Below, piece after piece: positions 2,189 to 36,867 of a stretch of DNA of 64,000 bases; positions within the stretch are counted from its first letter, which is position 1, and each line of letters opens with the position of its first letter. The notes beneath the pieces were generated by a model. The model was given only the letters and a program-made list of their open reading frames with translations, had not been told where the DNA came from and ran no database searches. The DNA is from Candidatus Latescibacterota bacterium (GTDB lineage: Bacteria > Latescibacterota > UBA2968): NCBI GenBank assembly GCA_022823725.1, contig JAJEHL010000010.1, forward strand, positions 62,001 to 126,000, in the 5' to 3' direction. Position numbers and translations under genes: made by a program.

Positions 2189-3100
2189 ATGGCATCTGTC
2201 CTTGTCATCGGGAGTTCCAACACCGATCTGGTTATTCGCACCAACAAATTGCCAGCCCCCGGTGAAACAGTACTCGGCGGCACATTTTTTACTGCTGCGG
2301 GTGGCAAAGGCGCCAACCAGGCCGTTGCCGCAGCCCGCGCAGGGGCACAGGTCACATTTATAGCGCGCATGGGTTGTGACGATTTTGGGAAGCGCGCTCT
2401 ATCGGCCTTTCAATGCGAAGGGATCGACACGCGTTGGATTGTATCCGATCCCGATTTACCGTCAGGCGTTGCATTTATCCTCGTGGATGATCGCGGAGAG
2501 AACAGCATTACGGTCGCTTCAGGCGCGAATGCAGCCCTATCCCCCGATCAAATCCAGGATCGGGCATATCAAGGCGCAGAAATATGCTTGCTTCAACTCG
2601 AAATCCCGATTGAAACCGTCGTCCAGGCTGTATATCTATCGACAAAAAACGAGACTCGCGTCGTACTCAATCCAGCAGCAGCAGACCTGCCAGAAGAAAT
2701 TTGGCCTCACCTTTTTCTCATTACCCCCAATCAAACCGAAACCGAGCACTTCACGGGCATTCCTCCCAACAGCCCCAAAAATATCGCAAAGGCAGCCGAC
2801 AAACTCCTCCAAAAAGGCGCTCAAAACGCCATCATCACCCTAGGAGCACAAGGTGCGTTTTTGGCGACATCAGATCAAACTTTACACATACCGGCTTTTA
2901 AAGCCACTTCAATAGATACCACTGGTGCAGGCGATGCCTTCAATGGCGCGCTAGCCTGCGCTTTAAGCGAAAACCAATCCCTTGAAACCGCCATTCGCTT
3001 TGCGTGTGCCGCAGGTGCTCTAACCGTTGGCAAAGCAGGTGCCCAACCCGCAATTCCCACAAGAGATCAAATCGATGCGCTGTTGGCGAATCTTCCTTGA
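2189..3100 (+). CDS. rbsK: Ribokinase (PfkB family)
   Basis: Ribokinase phosphorylates D-ribose at O5 with ATP, feeding ribose into the pentose phosphate pathway. The 303-aa product has both PfkB signatures: the N-terminal AAGGKGANQAVAAARAG (about residues 36-52) and the C-terminal DTTGAGDAFNGAL (about residues 247-259) with the catalytic Asp. The substrate-binding opening GSSNTDLVIR at residues 8-17 is typical of ribokinase rather than fructokinase. A GAGAGG ribosome site precedes the ATG. No rbs transport genes adjoin it, so it may act on scavenged ribose or on nucleoside-derived ribose. Substrate specificity within the PfkB family cannot be fully settled by reading. Confidence 0.9.
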   Translation: MASVLVIGSSNTDLVIRTNKLPAPGETVLGGTFFTAAGGKGANQAVAAARAGAQVTFIARMGCDDFGKRALSAFQCEGIDTRWIVSDPDLPSGVAFILVDDRGENSITVASGANAALSPDQIQDRAYQGAEICLLQLEIPIETVVQAVYLSTKNETRVVLNPAAADLPEEIWPHLFLITPNQTETEHFTGIPPNSPKNIAKAADKLLQKGAQNAIITLGAQGAFLATSDQTLHIPAFKATSIDTTGAGDAFNGALACALSENQSLETAIRFACAAGALTVGKAGAQPAIPTRDQIDALLANLP

Positions 3101-33243: not shown

Positions 33244-33275
33244 AAGCCTTGCAGAATTCTCTGTGAGGCTTTTAT
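33244..33275 (+). terminator. Rho-independent terminator of the BrnT/antitoxin unit
   Basis: A 12-bp stem (33244-33255 with 33260-33271, including two G-T pairs) around a 4-base loop, followed by TTATT. It overlaps the stop codon region of the convergent MFS gene. Confidence 0.55.
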
Positions 33276-34561
33276 TCTATCTCATCCAAACGCGCTCGGA
33301 ACCCGGGCAGAAGAGCAGTGACCAGAGCCGTTGCAACCATGGCGACACTGGTGTGTAAACCGAGGGCGAAAGGCGCGCCATAGACTTCGGTGAGTTTGCC
33401 AATTTGCAGACTTCCAAGCGGTCCTGCGCCAATGGCGAGGACGAGTGTACCCATTGCGCGATCTCTCATATCATCGCGAGCAGCGATAAGCATAATAGAG
33501 CTTTGCATCACAGTAAAAAATGCATGTCCCAGGCCAGCAAGTATGAGGAGAAAGATGGCCAGTGGAAACGCAACCGACGTGCCGAACAGAGTGAACGCAC
33601 CCACCCAGGATGTGCCAAAGGCAAAAACAAACAGCGCAAAGGCCTGAAAAATCGATCCAATGGAAAATATCCAGCCACGGCTGAGCCGCGAGCGCAACAC
33701 ACTGACCGCGTAAAGGCCAAAAAGCGCACCAATGCCATTGCAGGCGCCCAATATGCCGAATTCGAGCGGGCCTTTGTGGAGAATATCGTGTGTAAAAACG
33801 GGCAGTATGGTCTGGTAGGGAAACGCCAGAAAATTCATGATCACAGTAATGAGCAGCGTACCCATAATCGGCTGGCTCGTGCGCATGTATTGCAAGCCCT
33901 CGCGCATCAGCGTCCACGGAGAAGTTTTGAGAATCGCGGGGTGACGCGGTACTTTGACGCGCAGCATGATCAGGAATGAGATAAGGGAAATAAAAAAAAT
34001 AGCGATATAACAGTCCTGTACGCCAAATAGAGCGTAAATATATCCGCTTAAAAAGGGACCGATCACGCGAGCGATATTCTGGGTAAAGCTTTCGAGCATC
34101 ATCGCTTCAACCGTGCGCTGCTTGCCTACCAGGTCCGGCACCAGAGCGCGGCGAGCAGTCCAGTTGAGAGACCACGAGAGGCCAAATAGCACTGCGGCAA
34201 CAGCAAGATGCCAGAACGCCAGTTGATTGGCCCAGATCAGCAGGCCAATAGCAGCGAGGACCAGTACGCTGAGCCACTGTGAGAGAATCACAATGCGAAC
34301 GCGCCCAACGCTATTGATCAATGGCCCGGCGATAAAACCGACGAGCAACAGGGGAATAGATCGGTAAAAGCCAATCAGTGCAACGGCAAACGCGGAATGG
34401 GTAATCTCAAACACAAGCCATCCCGCGACAATCATTTCCATCCACATGGCCTGCCACCAGAGCATATTGCTCAGGATCAGGTAGCGAAAGCCGGAGTTGC
34501 CCAGGGGGGCAAGGGACCCGCGAAAGGAAATGGCAAATTTTCCCATTCTTCTGATGCGCAT
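33272..34561 (-). CDS. Major facilitator superfamily transporter
   Basis: The 429-aa protein has twelve hydrophobic segments in two blocks of six, split by a polar loop (KVPRHPAILKTSPWTLMREG). It has the MFS loop 2-3 element GPLINSVGRVRIVILSQWL near residue 75, related to G-x-x-x-D-R-x-G-R-R. It resembles the MFS_3/enterobactin-exporter group, so an efflux role is likely. The substrate is unknown. The start could be five codons later (MGKFAIS). It is convergent with the BrnT unit, whose terminator overlaps its stop. The peroxiredoxin-like selenoprotein gene lies just upstream, with 55 bases between. Confidence 0.85.
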   Translation of the reverse strand: MRIRRMGKFAISFRGSLAPLGNSGFRYLILSNMLWWQAMWMEMIVAGWLVFEITHSAFAVALIGFYRSIPLLLVGFIAGPLINSVGRVRIVILSQWLSVLVLAAIGLLIWANQLAFWHLAVAAVLFGLSWSLNWTARRALVPDLVGKQRTVEAMMLESFTQNIARVIGPFLSGYIYALFGVQDCYIAIFFISLISFLIMLRVKVPRHPAILKTSPWTLMREGLQYMRTSQPIMGTLLITVIMNFLAFPYQTILPVFTHDILHKGPLEFGILGACNGIGALFGLYAVSVLRSRLSRGWIFSIGSIFQAFALFVFAFGTSWVGAFTLFGTSVAFPLAIFLLILAGLGHAFFTVMQSSIMLIAARDDMRDRAMGTLVLAIGAGPLGSLQIGKLTEVYGAPFALGLHTSVAMVATALVTALLPGFRARLDEIE

Positions 34562-34616: not shown

Positions 34617-35189
34617 CTACCGCCCAATTTCGAAATCGCGTGCCACCGCCCGTGCCATCGCCACGAGCACATCGCTATCGATACGTTCACGATAATTGGG
34701 ATTAATATATTGAAATTGGATCTTGCGATTGGGTGCGATCACAAAGACCGATGGTACGGGCAAAGAGCGTTTTCTGTTATTCATAAACGCAACGCCATAA
34801 GCCTTTGCTGCCTCAAATTCTACATCCGATAACAGTGAAAACGCGAGCCCCACGCGATCGCGCACCTCAGCCAATTTTTCAGGCGGATCGGGCGCAATAG
34901 CTATAATTTCAAAACCCAGGCTATCTAACTGTGACTTCATTTCCTGCAGTTGTCCCAACTGCCGTCGGCAATGTGGTCACCAGTATCCGCGATAAAAAAT
35001 TAAAATCGTCGGTTTTTTGTGCGCGCCCAGGTCAAACTCCTGTCCATGTGCATCAGCGAGCGTCAGCGCGGGAACTTCATCGCCAACCATCAAGGGACGC
35101 ACCTTATTCGGCGCATCGGGCAATTGCGCGTGCCCCCATCCAAAAGTACCAAATACCACCAGCAACGCGATCCAGATTATTTTTTTCAT
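34617..35189 (-). CDS. Peroxiredoxin-like selenoprotein (UGA-encoded Sec71, U-x-x-C)
   Basis: Read through one in-frame TGA (34979-34977), the frame gives a 190-aa thioredoxin-fold protein: a signal peptide (MKKIIWIALLVVFGTFGWGHA), a VGDEVPALTLADAHGQEFDL strand, the active site FYRGYW-U71-PHC-RRQL and the family tail with SLLSDVEFEAAKAYG and GVAFMNNRKRSLPVPSVFV. The TGA replaces the first Cys of the CxxC of AhpC/TSA-like redoxins. Both halves are in the same frame and each conserves the family on its side, so this is not decay. A bacterial SECIS hairpin follows the UGA. The protein would act in the periplasm as a peroxidase or thiol reductase. Its genome must also encode SelA, SelB and SelC, which are not in this window. 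Confidence 0.88.
34946..34979 (-). promoter_or_regulatory. Bacterial SECIS element for Sec71
   Basis: After the TGA (34979-34977) come 14 bases, then a perfect 7-bp stem (GCAGTTG at 34962-34956 with CAACTGC at 34952-34946) and a GGA loop (34955-34953). The apical loop starts with G, 21 bases after the UGA, inside the 16-37 range described for bacterial SECIS hairpins. SelB binds such loops to insert selenocysteine. Confidence 0.75.
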
Positions 35190-35205
35190 AAAAATCTCCT
35201 CTATA

Positions 35206-36681
35206 TTACAGTGAGAGAATCTTCTTGATCTTCCCCGGCTGTGCCCAGTTGCATTTCCCCTCTCCGTTGAGTTGTCTCAACAAAGCGGGGATACCCGGAT
35301 GTTGAAGCGCAGAGTAAATCCGCTCTGCATCGGCCTCGTTCCAACAAGGGATAAACGCCTGCATCGCTTGATTCGCCTGCCACACCTGTCCCTTCTCGCT
35401 GTTTAAGATCACCGGATGGAAGTGACTCTTGCCATACGCCTCCCAGATAACCTTATAGGGCGCAAAAGAATACAGACCAACGCCGAGCAGCGACCACCAG
35501 ACGCCTTTGGCAATAGCAGATCGGATTAAAGTGCCTTTCCGACTTTCCAGTTTTTCTCTAACCTCAATGAGATATTGTCTCAGTTCGGCATATTGCTCAA
35601 TACGGTCCCATGAAAGCGGTCGTCCTGTATTTCTATTGTATGGAAGCAAAATCCATTTATGGGGAGCCATATCCCCATTCTTCCAGATCTCCTTTGTCGC
35701 AAGCGGAAAGAGAAATTCCTCGGGCAGATGCGTTGGCTTATCCTCAAACATAAAAATCGAATTTGCTCCGCAAGTATTCACGCCCTGACGCGGTTTTTGG
35801 TTGGAAGACAGTTCGACTTTGATGGAGCTATCGAGATCAGCAGTATCCCCGCATTGAAGAACCCGCCACTGATCGTCAGATGCCTTTAGAGGAACCGCCC
35901 GGTGTTCAATCCAGTTTCCACTGCGCTCTCTGAAATATCTGACGGGGAATTTATGTGGCACATCCATGCGAAATCTGACACAGCAATAAGATGTGCCAAT
36001 ACCCTCAAACACTTTATTTTCGGTAAACTCACAGACCTCATCCACCGCAAATCTCCGATGGTTCGAAATATAGTCCCTGAACCCTTTGTGGGCATCACCT
36101 GAGAAGAGAGAAAGTGGCAGATAAAAACACCCGACTCCATCCTTCCTCAGCAACTTACCCAACACAACCTTCAACACCAGCGCCGCTATATCGGTACGCG
36201 AGGGACCGAGCAAGACCTGTTTTTTATCGGGCACCAGCCCTTCTGATACAAAACGGAGCTTGAGTATCTCCTTATACGAATCGGACAAATCCGTAAAATT
36301 TGCCCACGGCGGGTTGCCAAACAGGATGTCGTGATTGGTATTCGGAGGATTTGTAATCACATCTAAAGCGAGAAGCTGAGACGAAGGAAAATCAATCTCA
36401 AATTTCCGACGCGCTTTACGTTGAAATGCCTGAAGATGTGATGCGCGGACCTCGATCAAAGTCAGCCGGGAAAGAAGTTCCGGCGCAATCCGAACACCTC
36501 TCGATCTGGCGAGACGGAACAGTGCGAGCGCGAAAGCACCCTGTCCCGCAGTCGGGTCGCAAATAGAAGCCCCATTAATCCATGCATCGAAAATACCCCA
36601 CCGCTCAATAAGCCATTCTGCCCACTTAATCGGAGTAAAAATCTGCCCGATCTCAACACTGTGTGAATTGTTTGCAGACAT
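35206..36681 (-). CDS. N6-adenine DNA methyltransferase (type IIG/Eco57I-like), solitary
   Basis: The 491-aa protein has the SAM-binding region GQIFTPIKWAEWLIERW then ICDPTAGQGAFALALFRL (motif I, near residue 45) and the catalytic motif IV ILFGNPPWANFTD near residue 120, of the N-P-P-W/Y/F type that methylates adenine N6. The C-terminal part carries a target-recognition-like region (LPEEFLFPLATKEIW and WILLPYN). No restriction or specificity gene lies beside it, so it may be an orphan methylase or the remnant of a restriction-modification system. The ATG at 36681 is used; a TTG three codons earlier is possible. It is on the same strand as the selenoprotein gene, 17 bases upstream of it. Confidence 0.8.
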   Translation of the reverse strand: MSANNSHSVEIGQIFTPIKWAEWLIERWGIFDAWINGASICDPTAGQGAFALALFRLARSRGVRIAPELLSRLTLIEVRASHLQAFQRKARRKFEIDFPSSQLLALDVITNPPNTNHDILFGNPPWANFTDLSDSYKEILKLRFVSEGLVPDKKQVLLGPSRTDIAALVLKVVLGKLLRKDGVGCFYLPLSLFSGDAHKGFRDYISNHRRFAVDEVCEFTENKVFEGIGTSYCCVRFRMDVPHKFPVRYFRERSGNWIEHRAVPLKASDDQWRVLQCGDTADLDSSIKVELSSNQKPRQGVNTCGANSIFMFEDKPTHLPEEFLFPLATKEIWKNGDMAPHKWILLPYNRNTGRPLSWDRIEQYAELRQYLIEVREKLESRKGTLIRSAIAKGVWWSLLGVGLYSFAPYKVIWEAYGKSHFHPVILNSEKGQVWQANQAMQAFIPCWNEADAERIYSALQHPGIPALLRQLNGEGKCNWAQPGKIKKILSL

Positions 36682-36867
36682 CCTTTTCAACCCATTCCAG
36701 CGCAGTTAGTTATGGCAATCATATAATGAATTTTCTCCAACGTAATCAGATACTGCTTTCGGATTCATTTCGCCTTTGAGTACACATATCGCATCTATAC
36801 ACACCTGTTCGCCTGAATTCAACTCTATTATACCCGCCTGAAAACACCTGTCAACCGATTTGTGTCA

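Follow-up and report, generated by a model that had tools for sequence, protein, structure and literature searches.

Results

A frame interrupted once by TGA

The window analysed here, a stretch of 64,000 nucleotides in all, belongs to a Latescibacterota genome of 5.3 Mb that is 98% complete in 51 contigs. On its minus strand lies one reading frame that runs from an ATG at 35189 to a TAG at 34617, its sole interruption being the TGA at 34979-34977, which is codon 71; the coordinates given in the original prediction, which had placed this triplet in the context GYW-U-PHC, are exact. With the TGA taken as selenocysteine (Sec, U) the protein reads FYRGYW-U-PHC, and in a profile search the PF00578 (AhpC-TSA) match spans the TGA, covering residues 35-159 at 97.7 bits (6e-28) against a curated cut-off of 26 bits. 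Open reading frame calling under table 11 divides the gene, as had been foreseen, into pieces of 70 and 113 amino acids, the second starting at a TTG at 34958. The features of the locus are as follows.

34617..35189, minus strand: predicted Sec-containing Prx-like (PF00578) gene of 190 codons, codon 71 being TGA (Sec); PF00578 match of 6e-28 across the TGA
34977..34979, minus strand: in-frame TGA read as Sec, U71 of the UPHC motif; TGA in 11/11 genus genomes, Cys in ~38 Cys homologues
34946..34962, minus strand: bSECIS stem-loop GCAGTTG GGA CAACTGC, 7 bp with loop GGA; conserved and in agreement with the bSECIS rules
35196..35202, minus strand: AGAGGAG resembling a Shine-Dalgarno site, 6 nt ahead of the ATG, from the sequence
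35127..35189, minus strand: putative signal-peptide-like N-terminus MKKIIWIALLVVFGTFGWGHA, similar to the N-termini of relatives

A GGAG-type site is found upstream of the gene in all congeners. The upstream neighbour (35206-36690, minus strand) resembles an Eco57I-like methylase by a sub-threshold Pfam match, and the downstream neighbour (33272-34561, minus strand) is an MFS_3 transporter. Each of the three congeners inspected shares the order methylase, Sec gene, transporter, and the methylase and the Sec gene possibly share one transcript. Scanning the surroundings of the Sec gene for promoters and terminators gave nothing above chance, and Rfam had no match within the 64-kb window. By eye the N-terminus of the protein has typical n, h and c regions, with similar N-termini in relatives, and residues 1-20 have a pLDDT of ~50 in an AlphaFold model. 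Cleavage of the putative signal peptide would probably occur after A21 and, because this N-terminus is conserved, it is proposed that the protein probably works outside the cytoplasm.

Homologues, fold and active site

Approximately 38 homologues in public genomes, nearly all from Bacteroidota, share FYRGYW-C-PxC, exactly or nearly so, and have Cys at both 71 and 74, which confirms that the family has Cys where the window gene has TGA. Among the Latescibacterota the search gave no close orthologue that has Cys instead of U, and the Cys comparison therefore rests on Bacteroidota proteins of ~25-36% identity. The invariant columns of a 22-sequence alignment include F65, Y66, R67, W70, C/U71, C74 and L143-P144-x-P146. 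A tree of the Sec and Cys forms requires only two changes, yet its long branches and weak support give no conclusion on the origin of Sec.

The AlphaFold model (pLDDT 90.6) has a Prx/Trx fold in which a helix, residues 72-90, follows directly after residue 71. Its best fold matches are peroxiredoxins of the Bcp/PrxQ (including Bcp4) and AhpE types, followed by ResA, including the CPHC variant 3c71. When the protein is aligned to Aeropyrum Bcp (2cx3), U71 falls opposite the Ser of PxxxSxxC, Cys74 opposite the peroxidatic Cys and R67 opposite the Pro. The classical peroxiredoxin signature (PxxxT/SxxC or TxxU) is absent from the window protein, which scores 18.6 bits against a cut-off of 298 with the Prx-SUH model NF045827. 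Since Sec occupies the T/S position and Cys74 the peroxidatic position, the protein is best described as Prx-like with a thioredoxin-type UxxC site, and not as a peroxiredoxin with a peroxidatic Sec. Thus the designation 'peroxiredoxin-like' in the original prediction stands with respect to PF00578, but the protein is not an AhpC/TSA peroxiredoxin of the peroxidatic-Sec kind.

It may nevertheless be proposed that the enzyme is a true peroxidase in which either Sec71 or Cys74 is peroxidatic, so that 'peroxiredoxin' would be right for function despite the motif. The nearest folds (Bcp4 and AhpE) are indeed peroxiredoxins, the sequence family is AhpC-TSA, and the peroxidatic Cys of the Aeropyrum Bcp/PrxQ has Cys74 as its aligned counterpart. 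Against this, PxxxT/SxxC is missing, with R67 at the position of the Pro and U71 at that of the T/S, and both the UxxC/CxxC layout and the match to the CPHC variant of ResA speak for disulfide chemistry. We consider a peroxidase possible but unlikely, and favour, with modest confidence, a thiol:disulfide-type reductase over a classical peroxidase as the predicted function.

Paralogues with Sec in the lineage

A tblastn search revealed a second Prx-like Sec paralogue of the UxxS type (FFRGTW-U-[KR]RS), open across its TGA, in five congeners (L043-L047) and in four sister-family genomes, G002-G005 (L035-L038); it was not found in the host genome of the window. Genome G010 has a further Prx-like gene (L041, nt 1654, minus strand, G010:C10) in which two TGAs lie in frame, giving FFRGPW-U-PK-U (UxxU), with a 7-bp hairpin downstream of them. 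Both the UxxS and the UxxU motif types are listed in a 2026 review (PMC13188914).

Constraint on both sides of the TGA

The gene is present in all ten other genomes of the genus at 77-95% identity, and codon 71 is TGA, and only TGA, in all 11 when the host is included; the UxxC site (U71-P-H-C74) is kept in every congener. Five more Latescibacterota genomes, with homologues at 41-49% identity, likewise have TGA, in one case in a frame-shifted copy. Relative to the window gene, dN/dS in the genus genomes is 0.10-0.21 for the first 70 codons and 0.05-0.15 for codons 72-190, the most distant congener having a dS of 0.8-1.0, and the variable sites among the 11 genomes, by codon position, number 20/11/38 upstream of the TGA and 27/17/68 downstream of codon 84. 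The two halves are therefore conserved in the same frame, as originally claimed, and constraint past the TGA is as strong as before it, which is not expected of a pseudogene or of a normal stop.

The fact that a simple caller splits the gene could suggest that a nonsense mutation has inactivated an old Cys gene. Such a history is scarcely credible, as the TGA is shared by 11 species-level genomes with no TAA, TAG or frameshift among them, both halves are constrained to a dS of ~1, and there are both a conserved SECIS hairpin and the Sec machinery (see below); indeed the constraint downstream of the TGA practically refutes it.

Two side observations concern frames and scans. Past its Sec codon, the UPHC homologue in G001 (L032/L042, G001:C67) is divided between two frames that overlap; the cause is probably either a recent frameshift or an indel introduced in assembly. 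A window-wide scan for further Sec-type TGAs against congener G019 was dropped as uninformative because two sequences that are ~90% identical at the nucleotide level make antisense frames, and neighbouring genes in the same frame, look conserved as well; at the TGA at 3098, for instance, the next gene continues in the same frame and mimics conserved read-through in the G019 comparison. The scan thus yielded no extra candidates and no control, and the codon analysis of the 11 genomes took its place.

A SECIS hairpin downstream of the TGA

The stem of the hairpin starts 14 nt and its loop 21 nt after the TGA, and four of the seven stem pairs are G-C. The geometry that had been predicted, 7 bp with a G-first loop 14 nt on, is thus correct, although 'GC-rich' was slightly strong. 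Bacterial SECIS (bSECIS) rules specify a loop of 3-9 nt that has a G among its first two bases, an upper stem of 4-16 bp, a UGA-to-loop distance of 16-37 nt and an MFE <= -7.5 kcal/mol (PMC13188914). The hairpin of the Sec gene agrees with every one of these published rules, the check originally suggested for it, and a 53-nt segment folds at -18.8 kcal/mol with a z of -2.8. Comparable hairpins (at least 7 Watson-Crick bp, a G at loop base 1 or 2, SECIS distance) follow only 11 of the 2,142 TGA triplets of the window (0.5%), counted on both strands and in any frame, and the window gene is among them.

Across the 11 genomes, the overlapping codon windows 76-80 and 77-81 are the only two of 181 five-codon windows that are invariant at the nucleotide level, and codons 77-81 are the hairpin. 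The gene thus offers a clean case in which SECIS constraint shows as a local loss of synonymous variation. In the relatives at 41-49% identity the stem is retained through compensatory changes on both sides at two pairs (G-C to A-U and U-A to C-G), and 92% of cells are paired in the distant relatives compared with 2-46% for slid versions, a comparison of nine sequences only. One or two stem pairs are broken in each of L031, L032 and L096, and the L031 hairpin fits the rules only with alternative pairing or broken pairs; support for the element is strongest in the genus and in L095/L096. The host's own selD, which serves as an internal standard, displays a similar arrangement, its Sec UGA being followed at 20 nt by ATCCAGC-GGT-GCTGGAT, likewise 7 bp with a G-first loop of 3 nt.

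The hairpin also bears on the suggestion that the locus consists of two genes, or has an internal start, with a 113-residue C-terminal protein initiated at TTG 34958, where the second open reading frame does open. That TTG lies inside the SECIS stem and is preceded by no Shine-Dalgarno sequence, and the Trx-fold domain (PF00578, 35-159) spans the TGA, such that the shorter protein would have lost the first strands and the start of the active-site helix. We regard this reading as extremely improbable.

Selenocysteine machinery in the host and the phylum

The host genome contains adjacent and complete selA and selB genes, the winged-helix domains of SelB being present, and a tRNA-Sec (UCA) gene that adjoins selD; selA, selB, selC and selD, the genes for which a search had been recommended, are therefore all found in the same genome. 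The host selD (L017, G000:C25:33721-34644) is a selenoprotein gene itself, with the motif SCGG-U-ASK (GGUA). Matches above cut-offs were obtained for selA in 45 of 64 phylum genomes and for selB in 44 of the 64 searched, which documents selenocysteine coding across this uncultured phylum. A TGA-type homologue of the window gene occurs in 16 genomes; 15 of them possess selB and also match selA, G044 with a fragment below the curated cut-off. The single TGA-type genome with no selA or selB match is G014, a congener represented by a 430-contig MAG; as selA and selB are adjacent (one operon) in congeners, this absence is likely an assembly gap.

Codes in which UGA specifies Trp or Gly are known in some candidate phyla, and it is conceivable that a near-cognate or recoded tRNA inserts another residue, Trp or Cys, with no involvement of Sec. 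The neighbouring genes are open under table 11, arguing against general use of UGA as a sense codon; the UCA-anticodon tRNA is tRNA-Sec; and the TGA falls exactly at the catalytic Cys of the homologues and is then followed by the SECIS element. Recoding of this kind thus has a negligible likelihood.

Conservation of the TGA, constraint, the hairpin, the machinery and the Cys homologues all support the selenoprotein reading of the original prediction, and neither outcome that it had named as refuting (selA, selB or selC absent from the genome, or close relatives with a real stop or a frameshift there) was observed. On the basis of this comparative evidence the UGA of one intact gene is almost certainly read as selenocysteine, yielding a redox enzyme of a known selenoprotein family, and we assign the locus as a Sec-encoding UxxC Prx-like gene with very high confidence.

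Discussion

Ordinary annotation would present this gene as two fragments or a pseudogene, so that a conserved enzyme loses its active site in databases. From established Sec biology and the chemistry of the family we infer the following course of Sec incorporation, export, chemistry, reduction and substrate choice. The hairpin 3' of UGA 71 would tether SelB-GTP-Sec-tRNA(Sec), leading to insertion of Sec and not to termination. In the exported enzyme U71, positioned where helix alpha-1 has its N-terminus, would probably use its low-pKa selenolate to attack a disulfide or a hydroperoxide, after which C74 would resolve the U71 intermediate as a Se-S bond. The Se-S bond may then be re-reduced by a DsbD/CcdA-type thiol donor in the membrane; one DsbD-type transmembrane protein is encoded in the host genome. 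It is tempting to speculate that the Latescibacterota possess an extracytoplasmic set of Sec redox enzymes on Prx-like scaffolds (exported UPHC, with UxxS and UxxU elsewhere), constituting a pathway unlike peroxiredoxins and Dsb/ResA, but this proposal is doubtful.

The find places a known selenoprotein family in a poorly studied bacterial phylum and leaves knowledge of the mechanism unchanged. A literature search, with most subscription journals outside its scope, found no papers on Latescibacterota selenoproteins. Novelty is confined to the lineage and the subgroup; family, motif and mechanism were already known. With respect to the SelL-related model NF040769, all 22 aligned members match at E <= 1e-3, and the window protein scores 51.2 bits against a cut-off of 120 and is thus not a SelL-related member by that model. 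The peroxiredoxin-like family cd02970 has a UxxS selenoprotein motif (PMC13188914 Table 1), which is shared, in a likeness by motif only, with the FFRGTW-U-[KR]RS paralogues described above, whereas the window gene retains the resolving Cys (UPHC). ResA/TlpA proteins likewise carry WCxxC at the start of alpha-1, but the overall sequence and fold of the window protein are nearer to Prx/Bcp. Its closest Cys homologues are the exported Prx-like CxxC proteins of Bacteroidota (FYRGYWCPxC), which are of similar length, have the same invariant residues and carry signal-peptide or lipoprotein-like N-termini, with Cys replacing Sec.

The family itself, the Prx-like thiol:disulfide oxidoreductase selenoproteins, has been described since 2005. 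Its members have an AhpC-TSA domain in which UxxC replaces the TxxU of Sec-peroxiredoxins (PMC1088965, PMC2398784, PMC13188914 Table 1), and the same family (PF00578, UxxC/UxxU) was named 'Prx-like' in the Sargasso Sea set and 'Prx-like 1' in the GOS set (PMC1088965, PMC2398784, PMC13188914). The window protein shares with it PF00578 and UxxC (U71-P-H-C74), and the subgroup to which it belongs differs in its FYRG[YH]W-UPHC motif, its signal-peptide-like N-terminus and its Latescibacterota host.
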